From Gluconobacter frateurii (lineage in GTDB: Bacteria > Pseudomonadota > Alphaproteobacteria > Acetobacterales > Acetobacteraceae), in contig NZ_BEWN01000002.1 of the NCBI RefSeq assembly GCF_002723955.1, positions 496,001 through 560,000 on the forward strand: a DNA stretch of 64,000 bases. Reading direction: 5' to 3'. Positions 29,401 through 37,184 of the stretch are shown here, piece by piece. Position 1 is the first letter of the stretch. Each line of letters begins with the position of its first letter. The position numbers were made by a program, and so were the translations under genes. The notes under the pieces were generated by a model, which did not search any database, had not been told where the DNA came from, and saw only the letters and a list, made by a program, of their open reading frames with translations.

Positions 29401-29581
29401 CGGAACCTGCGTTGTGGGTGGCATGGTGTCGGCAACCCTGCTGGCTATCTACTTCGTGCCGGTGTTCTTCGTGGTTGTTCTGCGTCTCTTCCGAGTGGTT
29501 CGTATCCGGGATCGCAAGAACCCATACGATCACCTGGATAATACTACGACACCCGCTATCGAAGGGGAGAAGGGCGCATGA
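26405..29581 (+). CDS. RND multidrug efflux transporter (HAE1/AcrB family)
   Basis: Encodes 1058 aa, the normal length. Start RFFIDRPIFAWVIGLIIMLVG is typical of TM1. TM4 carries the proton-relay pair in AVGLLVDDAIVVVENVERVM; TM10 has the Lys in GLSVKNAILIVEFAK. Twelve membrane segments and two large periplasmic loops are present. As a proton antiporter trimer in the inner membrane it expels hydrophobic drugs, solvents or organic acids. The ATG is 6 bases after the adaptor stop and its stop overlaps the outer-membrane factor start (ATGA). Substrates are not predictable from sequence. Confidence 0.95.
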   Translation: MTLSRFFIDRPIFAWVIGLIIMLVGAVAITRMPIAQYPSIAPPQIAISVMYPGASAETVNNTVVRPILQQMYGLDHLEYLSASSYASGQMEIDLTFEQGTNPDIAQVQVQNKLQLAQPRLPSEVTAQGLSVTKATKNFMMVLAFISEDGSMSGQDIADYVASNISDPLSRVSGVGDHTLFGSEYAMRIWLDPSKLYNYGLTVGDVEAAIQAQNIQVSSGELGGLPAKKGIGIDATVIGPTRLSSPEEFQKILLKVQQDGSQVRLSDVARVELGAQSYALGSMYNNHPAAAMALKLAPGANQLQTESAVRARMGELQRYFPAGLKLVYPLDTEPFITLSIKEVIETLAEAIVLVFLVMLVFLQNFRATLIPTIAVPVVLLGTFGLLSVMGYSVNTLTMLAMVLAVGLLVDDAIVVVENVERVMTDKGLSPKEAARVSMDEISGALIGIVLVLTAVFLPMAAFGGSTGVIYRQFSITIVAAMWLSVLVAMVMTPALCGSMLKPTHKGHDRGPAAWFNRTFDRVTNGYLGGVKRMIRMPVISMIVFVVVTAGVVFLFSRVPGGFLPDEDQGIIFGQVTMRNNATQEQTAAVNKKVTDYVLKTYGNYVQSVFTMTGFSFAGQGQTAGAFFIRMKPWDERPGSAHTTMTVSREIMMHFWMDPDAQIFAVNPPAVMELGNATGFDLELEDTGHLGHAALLAARNQVLMEAAKNPLLQAVRPLGMEDAPQFKLDINRERANALGLTNADINTTLEGALGSIYVNQFMRDDRVKQVYIQGEPWARMTPEDLNRWYVRNTTGTMVPFNAFASGTWESGPQKVEDYNGLNSYEIQGQPAVGSSSGQAMTEMEKILAKLPRGISYEWTGLSYEQLASSGSTGPLYALAAVVILFCLAALYESWAIPFAVLLVLPLGVLGAIAATLGRDLSNDVYFQVGLLTTVGLSVKNAILIVEFAKAFFEEGQSLEESVLEAGKERLRPILMTSIAFVCGVFPLAIATGAGSAARVAIGTCVVGGMVSATLLAIYFVPVFFVVVLRLFRVVRIRDRKNPYDHLDNTTTPAIEGEKGA

Positions 29582-31032
29582 AGGCCCGTCTTGGATTTGC
29601 CGCACTGCTGATGCTGTCAGGGTGCAATATGGCGCCTGTCTATCATCAGCCCACCCAGCCCATGCAGAACGCCTACCCGCAGGACACAGGCTCTAAAAAC
29701 GTCTCTTCGGCGGCCAAGGTCTATAATCTGGGCTGGGAAGATTTCTTCACGGACCCGCGCTTGAAAGCTCTGGTCCAACTGGGCCTGAGAAACAACCGGG
29801 ATCTGGCGGCTCAGGCTGCTGCCATTACGGTGGCGCGTGGGCAGTATGAAATTCAGAACGCGTCCCTGTTCCCGATCATCTCGGCTGGTGGGCAGGGCAT
29901 GTTCATGGCTCCGTCGAGCACGGCAGGCTTCTCTTTCGCACCAGGACTTGGCACCTCTATTTCCACTTTGAGGCTGTATCAGACGTCCATCGGATTTTCG
30001 TCTTATGAAGTCGATCTCTGGGGGCGGATCCGGAACCTGACGAAGCAGCAGGCTGAGACGGTTCTGAACAGTGTCGAGGGGGCGCGGAACGTTCTGATCA
30101 CGACGGTGTCCCAGATCGGCACGACCTACATCCAGTGGCTTGCGGATCGTGAGCAGCTTCGGGTCACGCGTGACACGCTAAAGTCCCAGCGCGATACGCT
30201 GCGCCTGACACAGCTCTCGTATGACAATGGCGAGACGGATGCCCTGACGCTGGCGCAGGTCAAGACGCAGGTCGAACAGGCTTCGGCCAATGAGGCGCAA
30301 TATACGCGTGCCGTGGCGGATGACGAGCATGCTCTTCAGGTTCTGGTTGGCGTGCCGTTGCCGGCTGATCTGCCGCCGCCGGCGCCGTTTGGCGCCCAGA
30401 CGATGATCAGTGATCTGCCTGAGGGGCTGCCGTCAGACCTTCTGGCCCAGCGTCCTGATATCGTAGCGGCTGAGCACACTCTGATTGGTGCCAATGCGAA
30501 TATTGGCGCCGCGCGGGCTGCATTCTTTCCGAAAGTGACACTGACGGCGTCCGAGGGCACAAGTTCGCTTCAGTTCCGCAAGCTGTTTACACCGGGCGCA
30601 GAGACTTGGACGGTCTCTCCGTCCATCAGTCTGCCAATCTTCACCTGGGGGCAGAGTGAGGGAAATCTGCGGATGGCGAAGGGGCAGAAGCTTCAGTACG
30701 CCGCGCAGTATGAAAAGACAGTGCAGACGGCCTTCCGGGAAGTGTCTGATGCACTGACGGCGCGTGAGACGTACACGGCGCAGGACCGGCATATGCAGGA
30801 ACTCGTCGGTCAGTCCCAGAAAGCTTATGATCTGGCCAAGATGCGTTATGACGCCGGAATCGACAGCTATCTGACCACGCTTGAGCAACAGCGTACGCTC
30901 TATCAGGCTCAGCAGAACGCCATTCTGGTTCAGGCCGCCCGTTTCCAGAACCTTGTCACATTGTATCGCGCACTGGGAGGTGGCTGGAGCCAGAAGACGG
31001 TTTCGCCTACAGTGCCTGCCGCAACGCACTGA
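29578..31032 (+). CDS. Outer-membrane efflux channel lipoprotein (NodT/OprM family)
   Basis: Encodes 484 aa. The lipobox LMLSGC puts the acylated Cys at position 16. Two outer-membrane-efflux repeats follow: first half with WEDFFTDPRLKALVQLGLRNNRDLAAQ, second with LAQRPDIVAAEHTLIGANANIGAARAAFFPKVTLTAS. Helical segments contain KTVQTAFREVSDALTARETY and YDAGIDSYLTTLEQQRTLYQAQ. It forms the TolC-like trimeric tunnel for the adaptor and pump encoded just upstream. Translation is probably coupled to the pump gene by the 4-base overlap. Confidence 0.93.
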   Translation: MKARLGFAALLMLSGCNMAPVYHQPTQPMQNAYPQDTGSKNVSSAAKVYNLGWEDFFTDPRLKALVQLGLRNNRDLAAQAAAITVARGQYEIQNASLFPIISAGGQGMFMAPSSTAGFSFAPGLGTSISTLRLYQTSIGFSSYEVDLWGRIRNLTKQQAETVLNSVEGARNVLITTVSQIGTTYIQWLADREQLRVTRDTLKSQRDTLRLTQLSYDNGETDALTLAQVKTQVEQASANEAQYTRAVADDEHALQVLVGVPLPADLPPPAPFGAQTMISDLPEGLPSDLLAQRPDIVAAEHTLIGANANIGAARAAFFPKVTLTASEGTSSLQFRKLFTPGAETWTVSPSISLPIFTWGQSEGNLRMAKGQKLQYAAQYEKTVQTAFREVSDALTARETYTAQDRHMQELVGQSQKAYDLAKMRYDAGIDSYLTTLEQQRTLYQAQQNAILVQAARFQNLVTLYRALGGGWSQKTVSPTVPAATH

Positions 31033-31555: not shown

Positions 31556-32695
31556 ATGACTGTTCCTGACATTGACCAGTTCCATGCCATTGCCATCAGC
31601 AGCCTTGCGCACAAACTGGCTGCCGAAGGGCGCAGCATCATTCACATGGAGTTTGGTCAGCCTTCGACCGGTGCGCCCCAAAAAGCTATTGAGCGGGCGC
31701 AGCATGTTCTTGCGACTGATCCGATGGGCTACTGGGAAAGCCAGCCCCTGAAGGAGCGCATCGCGCGCCATTATCAGGACATGTACGGTGCGACGGTTCA
31801 GGCCGATCAGGTTATTCTGACCTGTGGGGCTTCGCCTGCTCTGGTTCTTGCCCTGACAAGCAGCTTTGTTCCGGGGCAGAGGGTGGCGCTCGCCCGTCCG
31901 GGTTATGTGGCGTATCGCAATACGCTCCGGGCGCTTCACATGGAGGCCGTCGAGATCGAGTGTGGAGAGGCCGAGCGTTTCCAGCTTACGGCGGATGCTG
32001 TGGCCGCGATTAAGCCTGCGCCGGATGGTCTCATCATTGCCAGCCCGGCCAATCCGACAGGCACGATTCTTGGGGATGAAGAACTAAGGGCTATCCTGAA
32101 GGTCTGCCGCGATCGTGGTATCCGCGTGGTGTCAGATGAGATCTATCACGGCCTGAGCTATGGAGATCCGGCTCATTCCGTTCTGGAATATGAGCCGTCT
32201 GCCATGGTGGTGAACAGCTTCTCCAAATATTTCAGTATGGCGCCGTGGCGTCTCGGGTGGCTGGTGGTTCCCGTTGATCGGATTGATGCAGCGCGCGCTC
32301 GGATGGGCAATCTGTTCCTGACGCCTTCTGCGCTGAGCCAACATGCCGGACTTGTGGCTTTTGACTGCGTGGACGAGCTGGAAGGCCATCTCGACACTTA
32401 TCGCCGCAACAGAGACCTGTTGCTGGCGGCGATGCCGGAGATGGGGCTGACGCATATCGCGCCTCCTGATGGGGCGTTTTATATCTACGCGGATATCAGC
32501 CATCTCACGGATGCCAGTCTCGCTTTTTGCCGTCGGCTGCTGATCGAAACAGGCGTTGCGACTGCGCCGGGCGTGGACTTTGACCCGGTGAATGGGAACC
32601 GTTTCATGCGGTTCAGCTTTGCGGTGTCCACGGACCGGATTGAAGAGGCTGTGCGCCGTATGGTGCCCTGGTTTGCGGCTCAGCCCAGACGCTGA
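31556..32695 (+). CDS. PLP-dependent aminotransferase (class I/II)
   Basis: Encodes 379 aa. Fold-type I markers are present: ILTCGASPALVLAL (phosphate-binding), SPANPTGTIL, VVSDEIYHGLSYG and the PLP lysine in NSFSKYFSMAPWRLGW, with a C-terminal Arg in NRFMRFSFAVS that would bind the substrate carboxylate. It belongs to the aspartate/aromatic aminotransferase group; the donor-acceptor pair is uncertain. The gene stands alone on the plus strand. Its last 16 bases overlap the end of the convergent pnuT-like gene. Confidence 0.88.
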   Translation: MTVPDIDQFHAIAISSLAHKLAAEGRSIIHMEFGQPSTGAPQKAIERAQHVLATDPMGYWESQPLKERIARHYQDMYGATVQADQVILTCGASPALVLALTSSFVPGQRVALARPGYVAYRNTLRALHMEAVEIECGEAERFQLTADAVAAIKPAPDGLIIASPANPTGTILGDEELRAILKVCRDRGIRVVSDEIYHGLSYGDPAHSVLEYEPSAMVVNSFSKYFSMAPWRLGWLVVPVDRIDAARARMGNLFLTPSALSQHAGLVAFDCVDELEGHLDTYRRNRDLLLAAMPEMGLTHIAPPDGAFYIYADISHLTDASLAFCRRLLIETGVATAPGVDFDPVNGNRFMRFSFAVSTDRIEEAVRRMVPWFAAQPRR

Positions 32696-33255
32696 TCCGC
32701 CTGTTCAGCGGCTCGCCAGCGTAGAAGGCCCTGTAGAGCGAGTCCGATGAAAACCGCATACAGCACGGCGGTTGGGTACAGGTCGCGTGTGAGGAAGAGC
32801 AGCACGTACGCTGTGTCGATCACGAGCCACATCAGCCAGCTTGCGGTGTGGCGTCGGGCGGCCCAGAGCTGTGCCACGATGCTGTAACTGCTGAGCATGG
32901 CATCGGCGAGAGGTGTGGGGTCGTCCGTAAAGCGGGCGAGGCAGAACGCCCAGAGTCCGCCGCCGATAAGACCTGCCAACAAGCCGGCACTGGCCGTGTA
33001 GGCTGAGAGGGGCCGGATGTGGAGGGTAGCGTCTCCTTGCGAGCCATCTGTTTTCCACTGCCACCAGCCGTAAAACAGGCAGCCACAGAATACGGCTTGC
33101 AAGGCGGCATCCGCATAAAGCCGTGCTGCGAAGAACACCCAGCCATAAAGCACGGCAGCGATCAGTGAGACTGGCCAGCAGGCCATCTGGCGTTTCGCTG
33201 TCAGCCAGACACCTGCGGCGCTGAGAAGAGCGGCGAGAAGCTCGGTCAGGGACAT
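32680..33255 (-). CDS. pnuT: PnuC-family vitamin transporter, probably thiamine (PnuT)
   Basis: Encodes 191 aa with about seven hydrophobic segments. Family features are LTELLAALLSAAGVWLTAKRQMACWPVSLIAAVLYGWVFF at the start, FYGWWQWK, and the C-terminal WLMWLVIDTAYVLLFLTRDLYPTAVLYAVF, where the Trp-rich helices bind the vitamin in PnuC/PnuT structures. PnuC proteins act by facilitated diffusion and need a kinase for trapping. Membership of a TPP-riboswitch operon makes thiamine (PnuT) far more likely than nicotinamide riboside. The start overlaps the kinase gene by 10 bases. Last gene of the operon. Confidence 0.85.
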   Translation of the reverse strand: MSLTELLAALLSAAGVWLTAKRQMACWPVSLIAAVLYGWVFFAARLYADAALQAVFCGCLFYGWWQWKTDGSQGDATLHIRPLSAYTASAGLLAGLIGGGLWAFCLARFTDDPTPLADAMLSSYSIVAQLWAARRHTASWLMWLVIDTAYVLLFLTRDLYPTAVLYAVFIGLALQGLLRWRAAEQADQRLG

Positions 33256-34391
33256 GAAGCGGTCTGTTCCAGAGTGTTTTCAAGCCAGCTTAGAAGCGCC
33301 TGACCGTCTGGCCCTGCGAACCAGTGTGCATGACCGAGGAGATAGTCCGAATAGGCCACGGTTGCGGAAGCTTCGTCGTGCACGAGGGTGCGGTAATACG
33401 AGACTTCCGAGAGTGCGAATTCGACATGTACCAAGGGGAGAAACGCGACGACCAGTCTGCGCTCGGTCGGTGAAAGCGGATGGATGGAGTGATACCCGGC
33501 GAGCAGGGCTGTCAGTTGATCCCATGCCACTGTGTAATCTGGAGCAAGCCACGTAATGGCAGTGCGCTCGATGGCGACGGCGAGGTCATAGGCCGCGCAG
33601 GTCCGGTCTGACATACCGAAATCGAAAATTCCGCAGATCTCCGCTGTGGGATCGCTGGATGTCCAGAACTGGTTCGAGGGGTGCCAGTCTCCGTGTCCCC
33701 AGAGCGGTTCGATGTCGGGCAAAAGGGGTTTGAGACGGTCATAGAATGGGAGCAGGACTTTGAGATCCTGCTCCCATGACGGTGCTTGAAAGAGGGCGTT
33801 CAGTCCGGGTTGGGATTTGCCCCACTGGGCGAGACCCGCCTCAAGGTCTGGCTGGGTAATGGCCTGAAAACTGGAGAGCAGCAGGCGGTCATTCGGGCGC
33901 GCAGGGGCTGCGTATTCTTTTGAAGCGAGATGGAGACGCGCGAGTGCCCGTCCTGCCGTATGGGCTTGGTCAACGCAGAAAAACGGCTCCCAGGACTGAA
34001 CATCCCGATACAGGTCCGAGCCAGGAAGCGGGCGAAAGACTTCGTAAATCCAACCGTTTTCTTCCACGACAGAGCGACCCGTGCGATCTTTCAGCGGAAC
34101 GTGCAGCGGGAGGCCCTGTATAGCGAGATGCCTCATGAACGCATGTTCTTCCATGAGGGCGGTCTGATCGCGCAGGCGGGGATCATGCCGTTTGAGGAAC
34201 AGCACGGGTCCATTGGCCAGATTTATGAGGGCGGTCGCAGAAAAGGGGCGCTGGCCGTGCCACAGAAGAGTATCCGGGGTGAAGGCCAGAGCAAAGTGTT
34301 TCAGAACACGGCTTGCTTCATCCAGCGTCAGCGGCGGCCAATGCCGTTCAGCCTGCACACCCTTGACGCCGAACTGTCCGGGAACAGTCAC
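33246..34391 (-). CDS. APH-fold kinase, putative thiamine kinase
   Basis: From GTG 34391, 4 bases after the receptor stop, it encodes 381 aa. The start has no strong SD, so coupled translation is likely; an in-frame extension to 34466 would overlap the receptor. Kinase hallmarks are the N-lobe lysine region VLFLKRHDP, the Brenner-type catalytic loop GHGDWHPSNQF near residue 240 (Asp and Asn present), and the metal-binding IFDFGMSD near 260. These place it in the aminoglycoside phosphotransferase/homoserine-kinase-II/ThiK group. Its place between a TonB receptor and a PnuT-like permease under a TPP riboswitch suggests it phosphorylates incoming thiamine to TMP. Antibiotic modification is an unlikely alternative in this context. 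Confidence 0.75.
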   Translation of the reverse strand: MTVPGQFGVKGVQAERHWPPLTLDEASRVLKHFALAFTPDTLLWHGQRPFSATALINLANGPVLFLKRHDPRLRDQTALMEEHAFMRHLAIQGLPLHVPLKDRTGRSVVEENGWIYEVFRPLPGSDLYRDVQSWEPFFCVDQAHTAGRALARLHLASKEYAAPARPNDRLLLSSFQAITQPDLEAGLAQWGKSQPGLNALFQAPSWEQDLKVLLPFYDRLKPLLPDIEPLWGHGDWHPSNQFWTSSDPTAEICGIFDFGMSDRTCAAYDLAVAIERTAITWLAPDYTVAWDQLTALLAGYHSIHPLSPTERRLVVAFLPLVHVEFALSEVSYYRTLVHDEASATVAYSDYLLGHAHWFAGPDGQALLSWLENTLEQTASCP

Positions 34392-34395
34392 GAGT

Positions 34396-36771
34396 TCAGA
34401 AGCCTGTGGACGCTGTGAACAGGGCCGCGAAACCGCCGCCGACGTAATAACTCGGAGCGCTCCCACTGATCGTGCTGCCGTAAATACCGTTCGTGTCCTT
34501 TGCGTTCAGGGTCGGGCTGGCAACGCCGGAGAGGGAGCGCTCATTGGTGATGTTGATGAAGTTCAGGCGCAGGGTTGGTTTGTGCAGGCGAGACACATCA
34601 CCGAAGCGATAGCCGACGGAAATATCGCCAGTCGTACGGTCTGACATCCGCTCATCATTCATGAAGGTTGCGTATTGGTGCCCGGTGTAATGCAGGGTGG
34701 CGACGCCAAAGATATGCCCGTCATCGTAGCTGATGCCAGCCGCGGCCTGAAGTGTCGGGCTTCGAACGGCGATTCTGCCCTTGGTCGGCAGAAGGTCGCC
34801 GCCGGAGGCGATGTTGTTATCAATGGTGGCGTGTAGATACTCGCCCGAGACGTAAGGGCTAAAGTGGTGCCAGGGGCGGAGGCCGATTTCCACATCCACG
34901 CCGCGGGAGGTCTGGCCGCCGGCATTCATGGTCGTCTGAATGATGGAGCCGTTCTGGGAGGCCAACGTTGAGATCTGGCGGTTGGTAAAGTTGTAGTTGA
35001 ACAGCGTCAGGCTGCCGATGATCCATTGTCCTGTGCGGCGATATCCCAGTTCTTCTGAAATAGAATATTCGTTGCGGACGTCTGCGCTGCCTGTTGTCGC
35101 GAGTGCGCCGGAGGTTGGGTCATAGGTGTTGTAAAGGGCTGTCTGGTCAGGCGCGCGGAAATTGGTCGTGGCGTTGAAGAAGATCTGGTTCTGCTCATCA
35201 ATGCGCCAGCGGACGCCAAGACGCGGCAGAGGCTCCATGCTGTTGGATGCCACGCGATACTGGGGGCCGGGAACATTGTTCGTGCCAGCGCGGCTCATCA
35301 TGACGGCCTTGAAACCGGCTTCGATGGTCAGGCGATCATGCAGGAGCGAGATATGATCGCCCACATACAGTGCGTTGGTCTGGGAAATGGTGTGGAAGCT
35401 GCCGCCCAGCAGTTTCTGTCCGTTCGCAAGATGGATCAGGCTGCTGCTGTTTTCCGCCCAGATATCGCCTGAAGCGCCGGTCGCGGAAACGGTTGTGAAG
35501 GGCTGCTGCTCGTTGTCGTCTCCGTAATCATACCAGTAACCGAGGACGAAATCGTTCCAGCCGGTTTTGTAATGCAGGGTGGAATTGAATCCGGAGCGAT
35601 AACTGCGTTGCGTGTAGTTGGCACGCACGACAGCGGTGCCATCCTGTGCATTGGGCAGCGTGAGCGTGTCACTCAGGGGTTGGGTGCCGTTATAGAGACC
35701 GGTTTCCGTCAGTGTGGAGCCGCCCGGAACGTTGCCATAGGCGAACTGTGCGTAAGGTGTGACGTCTAGGGAAAGCTTATGCGTCAGATGCAGATGGACG
35801 GGCGCGCCTGCATAGAAGGTGCGTTCCGGGTCACGCCACAGACGCCAGTAATTAACGGCGTTGTCTGCGTTGGAGGCGTCATAATGGCCTGCAAGGTTGT
35901 TCGCGCCATGAATGCCATCGGCTTTCCAGCTTTCCATCGTAACCTGCGGATAATAGCTGGTGATGGTTGTATTGAAGGAGCCAATGAGGCTGGCGCGGTT
36001 GCCTTGACCCCATTCCTTCAGGAACTTGAAATCGACATGCTGGCGTTTGTCCCGCCCCGGCCCACGCCAGTTGTCGCTGGCGCTGTGGGAGTAGGATACA
36101 AAGCCACGAATGCCGGAATTGCCGATGTTGCCTGTTTCAAGGCGAATGAATTCGCGGTTGGTGTCGAAGGAGCCATAGGAGACGCTGGCGAAACCCCCGG
36201 CCTTTTGTGACGGATCGAGAAAGGACAGGCTCATCAGGCCACCGGCGGCGTTCAGGACGGGACTGTCCAGATCGGCCGCCCCTTGGGCGAGCGCGACCTG
36301 ACTGTAGTTCTCACTGTCAGCGAACTGGCTCGGATATCCGGAATAATAGGCGACATCGTTCAGCGGCGTGCCTTCCAGCACATAACCGATGGCGTCATTG
36401 TTCAGGCCGCGAACGGTCAGGTTGGTGTTGGGCGAAAAGCCGAACGGATCGGATGTGGCAACGTTGGCGCCGGGCAGCATGGAGGCAAGCTGATAGGCCG
36501 TCGCCATCGGGGGCTGCTTGTCCATGTAATCGCGGCTGACGGTGCTGATGGAGCGCACGCTGTTTTCCGGTCGGATCAGGCCACCGCCGGGCTGGTGCCC
36601 GGGCGCGCTGTCAGAGATGCGGTGAACGGTAATGTACTCGGTTTTCGGGGCACTGGAGGCAGGTGGAGTGAGGGCTGTGGTATCAGCCGCGCGCACCGTA
36701 CCAGCACACACAGTCAGGCCGAGCAGAACCGCAGGGACGGGACGCGGCCTGTATGAAAATCGGTTGCTCAT
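34396..36771 (-). CDS. TonB-dependent outer-membrane receptor, probably for thiamine
   Basis: Encodes 791 aa with a signal peptide (VLLGLTVCAGTVRAAD). The plug domain spans about 60-190 (RDYMDKQPPMATAYQLASMLPGANV, NLTVRGLNNDAIGYVLEGTPLND, LDSPVLNAAGGLMSL). The remaining 600 residues are the 22-strand barrel, with alternating aromatic strands and a C-terminal aromatic end (ALFTASTGF). It is powered by TonB-ExbBD. The TPP riboswitch 98 bases upstream and the co-transcribed kinase and PnuT genes point to thiamine or its phosphates as ligand. Similar riboswitch-linked receptors are known from genome comparisons; ligand proof is not in the sequence. Confidence 0.85.
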   Translation of the reverse strand: MSNRFSYRPRPVPAVLLGLTVCAGTVRAADTTALTPPASSAPKTEYITVHRISDSAPGHQPGGGLIRPENSVRSISTVSRDYMDKQPPMATAYQLASMLPGANVATSDPFGFSPNTNLTVRGLNNDAIGYVLEGTPLNDVAYYSGYPSQFADSENYSQVALAQGAADLDSPVLNAAGGLMSLSFLDPSQKAGGFASVSYGSFDTNREFIRLETGNIGNSGIRGFVSYSHSASDNWRGPGRDKRQHVDFKFLKEWGQGNRASLIGSFNTTITSYYPQVTMESWKADGIHGANNLAGHYDASNADNAVNYWRLWRDPERTFYAGAPVHLHLTHKLSLDVTPYAQFAYGNVPGGSTLTETGLYNGTQPLSDTLTLPNAQDGTAVVRANYTQRSYRSGFNSTLHYKTGWNDFVLGYWYDYGDDNEQQPFTTVSATGASGDIWAENSSSLIHLANGQKLLGGSFHTISQTNALYVGDHISLLHDRLTIEAGFKAVMMSRAGTNNVPGPQYRVASNSMEPLPRLGVRWRIDEQNQIFFNATTNFRAPDQTALYNTYDPTSGALATTGSADVRNEYSISEELGYRRTGQWIIGSLTLFNYNFTNRQISTLASQNGSIIQTTMNAGGQTSRGVDVEIGLRPWHHFSPYVSGEYLHATIDNNIASGGDLLPTKGRIAVRSPTLQAAAGISYDDGHIFGVATLHYTGHQYATFMNDERMSDRTTGDISVGYRFGDVSRLHKPTLRLNFINITNERSLSGVASPTLNAKDTNGIYGSTISGSAPSYYVGGGFAALFTASTGF

Positions 36772-36780
36772 GAACGTCGT

Positions 36781-36818
36781 GTCCCGCCTGCAAGACTACG
36801 ATCCCGCCCAGGCAGGAC
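36781..36818 (-). promoter_or_regulatory. SD-sequestering hairpin in the thiamine operon leader
   Basis: On the minus strand GTCCTGCCTG pairs over all 10 positions (one G-U) with CAGGCGGGAC. The second arm ends 9 bases before the receptor ATG and holds the only SD-like purine run (GGCGGGA). With TPP bound this stem could block translation. The first arm overlaps a stretch that can instead pair with the 3' end of the riboswitch. Confidence 0.55.
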
Positions 36819-36869
36819 AGGGACGACGAGAGACACCGAAAATCCAGTCTGTGGATCTGTCAGTAGCCA

Positions 36870-36982
36870 CCATCCCTCCGCCAGCATGAACTGGATCAGG
36901 TTCGATGGGTCACTGCGCCGGTCTGCCCCGCAACGGAACACACCCTCAGCAGTCTCTCAGCCCTTTGACAGGGCACCCCAAG
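36870..36982 (-). promoter_or_regulatory. TPP riboswitch (THI element)
   Basis: On the minus strand the element begins CTTGGGGTGCCC, continues with the conserved GGGCTGAGAG, and ends ACCC, GAACCTGATCCAG, GCTGGCGGAGGGA. These are the invariant blocks of the TPP-binding aptamer, including CUGAGA and the ACCUGAUC and GCGGAGGGA segments. It lies 98 bases before the TonB receptor start and should switch off the receptor-kinase-permease operon when thiamine pyrophosphate is abundant. Confidence 0.95.
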
Positions 36983-37184
36983 GTGAAGAAGCACTCCATC
37001 CATGGGAGACAGGGGAATGTCAATCAGGAACGTCTTCAAAACTTCGTCGATGGCGTGTGGCCATAACGGAGATGAGAAGCTCGCTTTCGTGGAATAACCC
37101 TCGACATCCAACGGAAGATTCCTGACAGTGGGTGGATGCCCGTCTGTCCGCCCATCTGTTGTATTTCAGTTCGAAGGATCGCCT

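Follow-up and report, generated by a model that had tools for sequence, protein, structure and literature searches.

An APH-fold kinase in a thiamine pyrophosphate riboswitch operon of Gluconobacter frateurii as a candidate trap for imported thiamine

What does a small-molecule kinase do when its gene is wedged between those of an outer-membrane receptor and an inner-membrane permease, behind a riboswitch for thiamine pyrophosphate (TPP)? The question is raised by a minus-strand operon in a 64 kb stretch of DNA (the window, 64,000 nucleotides) from Gluconobacter frateurii, the genome of which (G000) is 3.3 Mb and 99.97% complete. The first-pass annotation of this DNA had proposed a complete capture-and-trap route for the vitamin, and our analysis makes it probable that the operon is a thiamine route of this kind with an APH-fold kinase as the trap. 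In the proposed mechanism, low TPP would let the riboswitch permit operon expression, the TonB-dependent receptor would carry thiamine across the outer membrane, and the PnuT-type permease would let it equilibrate across the inner membrane. The kinase would then convert thiamine to thiamine monophosphate, preventing its exit, and ThiL, encoded elsewhere, would finish the conversion to TPP. The parts are as follows.

36856..36990, minus strand: TPP riboswitch aptamer (RF00059), 70.7 bits in Rfam against a gathering threshold of 54.3, full model 1-105.
36772..36855, minus strand: leader from the aptamer to the receptor start, with a predicted hairpin; tentatively a translational expression platform, at low confidence.
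34396..36771, minus strand: TonB-dependent receptor of 791 amino acids, presumed thiamine receptor; Plug (PF07715) and beta-barrel (PF00593) domains, both above cut-off.
33246..34391, minus strand: APH-fold small-molecule kinase of 381 amino acids with a GTG start, proposed thiamine kinase; PF01636 at E 1.3e-24.
32680..33255, minus strand: PnuC-family permease (PnuT-like) of 191 amino acids; PF04973 at E 1.2e-45, TIGR01528 at 88.9 bits.

The order riboswitch, receptor, kinase, permease, as first annotated, was confirmed by the Rfam and Pfam matches. The riboswitch (36990-36856, minus strand) is the sole Rfam match in the window at gathering thresholds, and the receptor scored 36.2 bits with PF07715 and 92.9 bits with PF00593, which identifies it as TonB-dependent. 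The tight spacing described earlier was found again: the receptor stop is followed after 4 bases by the kinase GTG at 34391, the kinase and permease reading frames share a 10-base overlap, and no clear Shine-Dalgarno sequence was seen by eye upstream of the kinase start. The motifs GHGDWHPSNQF and IFDFGMSD, quoted for the kinase in the first-pass annotation, are present in the protein.

The arrangement is not chance, because homologous genes sit together in dozens of genomes. In a sample of 249 genomes from the host's family, 39 matched the kinase at E 1e-10 or better. We dropped G056, G071 and G088, which matched only at about 1e-11 with 32-34% identity, leaving 36 kinase-bearing genomes including the host. 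From 31 of these, 32 loci were taken, and 24 showed receptor, kinase and permease in this order on one strand, with a split receptor in one (L043 of G136) and a split receptor and kinase in another (L062 of G126). Of the remaining eight, L039 and L041 have kinase and permease without a receptor of the window type; L053 and L055 combine kinase and receptor with an ABC transporter; L056 has the kinase and ABC genes; L061 and L063 are short contigs; and L064 is a second copy in G169. In L062 (G126:C1:703429-706709) the receptor and the kinase are each split by frame changes, through either operon decay or assembly errors; G126 retains thiC, thiG and thiE.

The association extends well beyond the family. 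We scanned 84,980 species genomes for relatives bearing the motif W[GT]HGDWH and analysed the best 80 of 290. Receptor-kinase-permease order was found in 43 of 45 loci from Acetobacteraceae or Zymomonas, and receptor-permease-kinase order in all 35 Burkholderiales loci. In L119, L122, L134 and L138, the four Burkholderiales loci scanned for it, the receptor is likewise a Plug and beta-barrel protein. One kinase-permease pair therefore appears to be combined with two unrelated receptors, since the L138 receptor, in the one comparison made, showed no significant similarity to the window receptor (best E 0.2). The matched parts of kinase and permease are separated by about 0.45-0.8 kb in two Zymomonas loci and in L051. 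A class-wide search of 385 genomes, which scored at most five candidates per genome and may miss some, found the kinase at E 1e-20 in two genomes only, both of the host's family.

The closest coupling was found in Robbsia andropogonis (L134), in which a single frame of 637 residues carries the permease domain (PF04973) at 4-184 and the kinase domain (PF01636) at 299-547. This fusion occurs in 1 of the 107 loci having both genes and is known from one draft genome. A single-sequence structure prediction of the fusion reached a mean pLDDT of 38.8 and was not used.

Which kind of kinase is this? The protein passes PF01636 (APH) with 87.7 bits against a cut-off of 23.2, its only Pfam match. Residues K67, E82, H233, D235, H237, N240 and D257 are invariant both in 29 members of the family and in 36 sequences from the window and named genomes; we take them to be the catalytic Lys, the Glu, the HxDxHxxN loop and the DFG-type Asp, D257 being part of a DFG-like motif. 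An AlphaFold model (mean pLDDT 92.9) predicted an APH fold, for which the best match was homoserine kinase 2ppq, followed by other APH-fold kinases; 2ppq was also the best solved match by sequence. The nearest named relative is from Gluconobacter japonicus (89% identical).

ThrB_alt (PRK05231, TIGR00938), itself of APH fold, is thus the nearest family by both sequence and fold. The window kinase differs from it in lying far under the family cut-offs (55.3 vs 271 for NF003558, 42 vs 255.9 for TIGR00938) and in coming from genomes that encode a true ThrB elsewhere (351.6-394 bits vs 271 in each of six genomes checked), and a homoserine kinase identity was rejected. That it is a homoserine-kinase-like or other metabolic kinase merely travelling with uptake genes is suggested by its best NCBIfam matches, which are these same homoserine kinase models. 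We consider this quite improbable: a true homoserine kinase is already present in the genomes checked, two gene orders and one fusion link the operon kinase to the permease, and the two kinds of kinase fall into separate tree groups. In that tree, of 49 rows, 41 operon kinases formed one group (100/99), from which five ThrB rows of the same family stood apart, a separation to be read with the caution that long branches meet.

An E. coli-type ThiK was also rejected (best BLASTP E 0.32; profile comparison probability 0.3%), and none of the kinase's three NCBIfam matches was to a ThiK model. The thiamine pyrophosphokinase domain PF04263 (Tnr3/ThiN) was found neither in the kinase nor in its own genome.

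The substrate was approached by elimination. Of the 249 family genomes, 247 gave a match to the ThiL model, 230 of them above cut-off. The thiamine pyrophosphokinase domain was found in one, G040, a genome lacking the operon kinase, and in none of 29 further genomes whose loci carry the kinase. The 16 kb stretch around the G040 domain (L071 7472-8158) gave no Rfam match, and by eye contained no receptor or Pnu permease. Among the 36 kinase-bearing genomes, thiC is absent in eight and broken in a ninth, G211. For thiG, partial matches of at most 25 bits were all that was found in G136, G032, G243, G070 and G211; thiE is absent in G136, G243 and G070, reduced to a 19.7-bit fragment in G032 and broken in G211. 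These five genomes are small and are listed at 99-100% completeness. The thiC and thiE pieces of G211 (G211:C1:288681-290540) look like a recent loss of thiamine synthesis.

All five genomes lacking intact thiC, thiG and thiE carry a TPP riboswitch before the operon (67.7 to 77.5 bits) and encode ThiL at E 3.2e-84 or better, at least four of them above cut-off. Their gene content indicates that they need external thiamine. The only APH-family genes above cut-off in G032, G243 and G211 are homoserine kinase and the operon kinase, and G070 holds one further weak APH-family gene. Because these five genomes keep operon, TPP riboswitch and ThiL and lack intact thiC, thiG and thiE as well as the pyrophosphokinase, the operon kinase is the best candidate, and the only one found, for the step from thiamine to its monophosphate, from which ThiL would complete the route. 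In three of the five the kinase is 71-73% identical to that of Bombella and that of Parasaccharibacter, a genus linked with bees. Bombella is linked with bees as well (PMC9147383). Thiamin is unmentioned in the main text of the Bombella genome papers searched for the term.

The capture-and-trap route of the first-pass annotation is thereby well supported by a triad in two gene orders, two unrelated receptors, a fusion, and the retention of operon and ThiL where synthesis has been lost; its central step, phosphorylation of thiamine itself, is one that we infer. Several observations weigh against this reading. G136 is the weakest of the five genomes, having its receptor in pieces and a further unassigned APH gene; other genes near its operon also appear fragmented by eye. 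Loss of synthesis was scored on thiC, thiG and thiE, and yjbQ, thiD, thiM and THI4 were not searched for; YjbQ can replace ThiE (PMC5613172).

The riboswitch is a patchy, not a constant, part of the operon. A TPP element precedes the receptor in 13 of the 36 family genomes (in G118, G158 and G170 its place was deduced solely from how far away the kinase is), and three more genomes (G049, G080, G128) have one beside the kinase, giving 16; the G049 and G080 elements, at 51.1 and 43 bits, are below cut-off. In the other 20, no TPP element was found beside the operon. Eighteen of these were scanned for a hidden element at E up to 1, over roughly 1.5 to 2 kb ahead of the receptor or, in G037 and G117, in which a receptor was not seen, over roughly 4 kb ahead of the kinase, and none had one; G030 and G001 lay outside the scan. 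Of the 19 upstream stretches scanned in this way, only the positive control, L072 (G066), matched. A crude pattern scan gave one match in L072 and one on the wrong strand of L081. Among named loci, 19 of 20 from Gluconobacter have the riboswitch (L104 does not), as do L163 and Bombella L164; it was found in none of 11 Acetobacter, Brytella and Acidomonas loci, none of 10 Burkholderiales loci and not in the one Zymomonas locus scanned. The first-pass annotation had named a survey showing the kinase not to be conserved with the riboswitch as grounds for refutation, and this has come about in part: the kinase is often conserved without the element, as in those 20 genomes.

In the window, the leader hairpin covers GGCGGGA, the likely Shine-Dalgarno sequence (minimum free energy -50.2, z -2.70; 3 of 200 shuffles as low). 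Five close leaders keep the GCAGGCGGGAC arm constant while the facing arm varies, and in ten more distant folded leaders a common terminator was not evident by eye. Because no terminator was seen, our guess from these predicted folds is that the operon may be controlled at the level of translation. RNA-seq of G. oxydans 621H reported one TPP riboswitch, before the phosphomethylpyrimidine synthase gene (thiC), with signs of transcription termination, and none is listed for the kinase operon in the available text of that report (PMC5756330). A second, long TPP element precedes thiC in G000 (C1:329786-329935, L002; 44 bits, below the Rfam cut-off), and, judged by position, 17 of the 27 genomes in which thiC is intact have such a sub-threshold element ahead of it.

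The kinase also occurs with a different permease. G049 and G080 have genes for an ABC ATPase and an ABC permease, then the kinase, the TPP element, the receptor and, last, an NMT1/THI5-like binding protein. G001 has the two ABC genes in the same order, followed by the kinase. An importer of the ABC type does not depend on a trap. These loci (L053, L055 and L056) come from three genera, and the role of the kinase is not bound to PnuT alone. Because the kinase sits with an ABC transporter in G049, G080 and G001, it appears to be tied to B1-related import more broadly than to PnuT.

The same loci would also fit another substrate. What the kinase phosphorylates and the transporters carry might be a precursor of thiamine, either the pyrimidine HMP or the thiazole alcohol. 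The NMT1/THI5-like binding protein, next to which the kinase and ABC transporter lie in G049 and G080, belongs to a family known for pyrimidine precursors, and G001 lacks thiC yet has thiG and thiE, a gene content that would also suit import of a pyrimidine precursor. We nevertheless think a precursor an unlikely substrate, as the five riboswitch-operon genomes lacking intact thiC, thiG and thiE could not join a phosphorylated precursor into thiamine phosphate, unless YjbQ, which was outside the gene search, does so.

The permease bears on a further alternative. It passes PF04973 with 156 bits against a cut-off of 27.3, and the only solved structure that it matched is PnuC, 4qtn. It also passes TIGR01528, the model of the nicotinamide riboside transporter PnuC, so that sequence models cannot separate PnuT from PnuC; the context of the gene points to thiamine as its probable substrate. 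Were the permease to carry nicotinamide riboside, the kinase would be a nicotinamide riboside kinase and the riboswitch incidental. PnuC uptake also requires a trapping kinase. This explanation is very improbable: a TPP riboswitch stands ahead of the operon in 13 of the 36 family genomes and in 19 of the 20 Gluconobacter loci, and genomes that have no intact thiamine synthesis genes have kept the operon as well as ThiL.

On the plus strand the operon is flanked by an aminotransferase gene (convergent) and an MFS exporter gene (divergent). The receptor DNA (34396-36771) is about 93-94% identical to that of G. cerinus and Gluconobacter sp. Gdi (L108, L093); in the same comparison the adjoining kinase and permease reach 69-71% and the flanking MFS gene 76%, and the receptor gene seems to have been exchanged between Gluconobacter species. 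A gene for an RND-type efflux outer-membrane protein (window 29578-31032) lies near the thiamine operon, likewise in three small relatives (L181, L182, L183; names assigned by eye).

A thiamine route with a trapping kinase has a close counterpart. Bacteroides carries OMthi, pnuT and tnr3 under TPP riboswitches, as one operon in most of the gut Bacteroidetes genomes studied; there, when a transport gene is deleted together with the synthesis operon, the thiamine requirement is about tenfold higher than when synthesis alone is lost (PMC5613172). The same source calls Tnr3 a pyrophosphorylase. The window operon resembles this system in its TPP riboswitch, TonB receptor, PnuT-like permease and proposed thiamine-phosphorylating enzyme. 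It would thus follow the same logic, its new part being a different and so far unassigned kinase: in place of Tnr3, which we take to be of the thiamine pyrophosphokinase type, stands an APH-fold enzyme that would yield the monophosphate and rely on ThiL. Like PnuT transporters, the window permease is a small integral membrane protein of the PF04973 family in a TPP-riboswitch context. Facilitated diffusion of thiamine by PnuT is given in the title of Jaehme et al. 2018, as cited in PMC7749635, and a trapping kinase would fit it.

The proposed reaction is that of E. coli ThiK (YcfN), which makes thiamine monophosphate for ThiL (PMC9247456). Unlike the window kinase gene, E. coli thiK has lpoB and nagZ as its neighbours; within the surrounding 12 kb the listing has no Pnu permease, and the only receptor, the siderophore receptor fhuE, is four genes off on the other strand. 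The two kinases presumably share a broad kinase superfamily. A full-text literature search, with subscription papers mostly outside it, gave no description of the operon kinase in titles or abstract starts among the matches listed.

With somewhat less than even confidence, we propose that the kinase belongs to a further, unnamed lineage of thiamine-phosphorylating enzymes, with no detectable relation to ThiK and no pyrophosphokinase domain, which may be dedicated to uptake and work with PnuT and two unrelated TonB receptors or, in some genera, with an ABC importer. The Robbsia fusion would then make import and phosphorylation one vectorial step, a vitamin group-translocation system, and as a natural fusion it offers one protein for studying transport coupled to phosphorylation. 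ThiL needs thiamine monophosphate and a one-step pyrophosphokinase is almost never present in the family, so the entry of imported thiamine was a missing step; the permease-linked kinase, if the assignment is true, would fill that step, and it supplies a testable gene. The ability of acetic acid bacteria that do not synthesise thiamine to live on an external supply would be explained as well.

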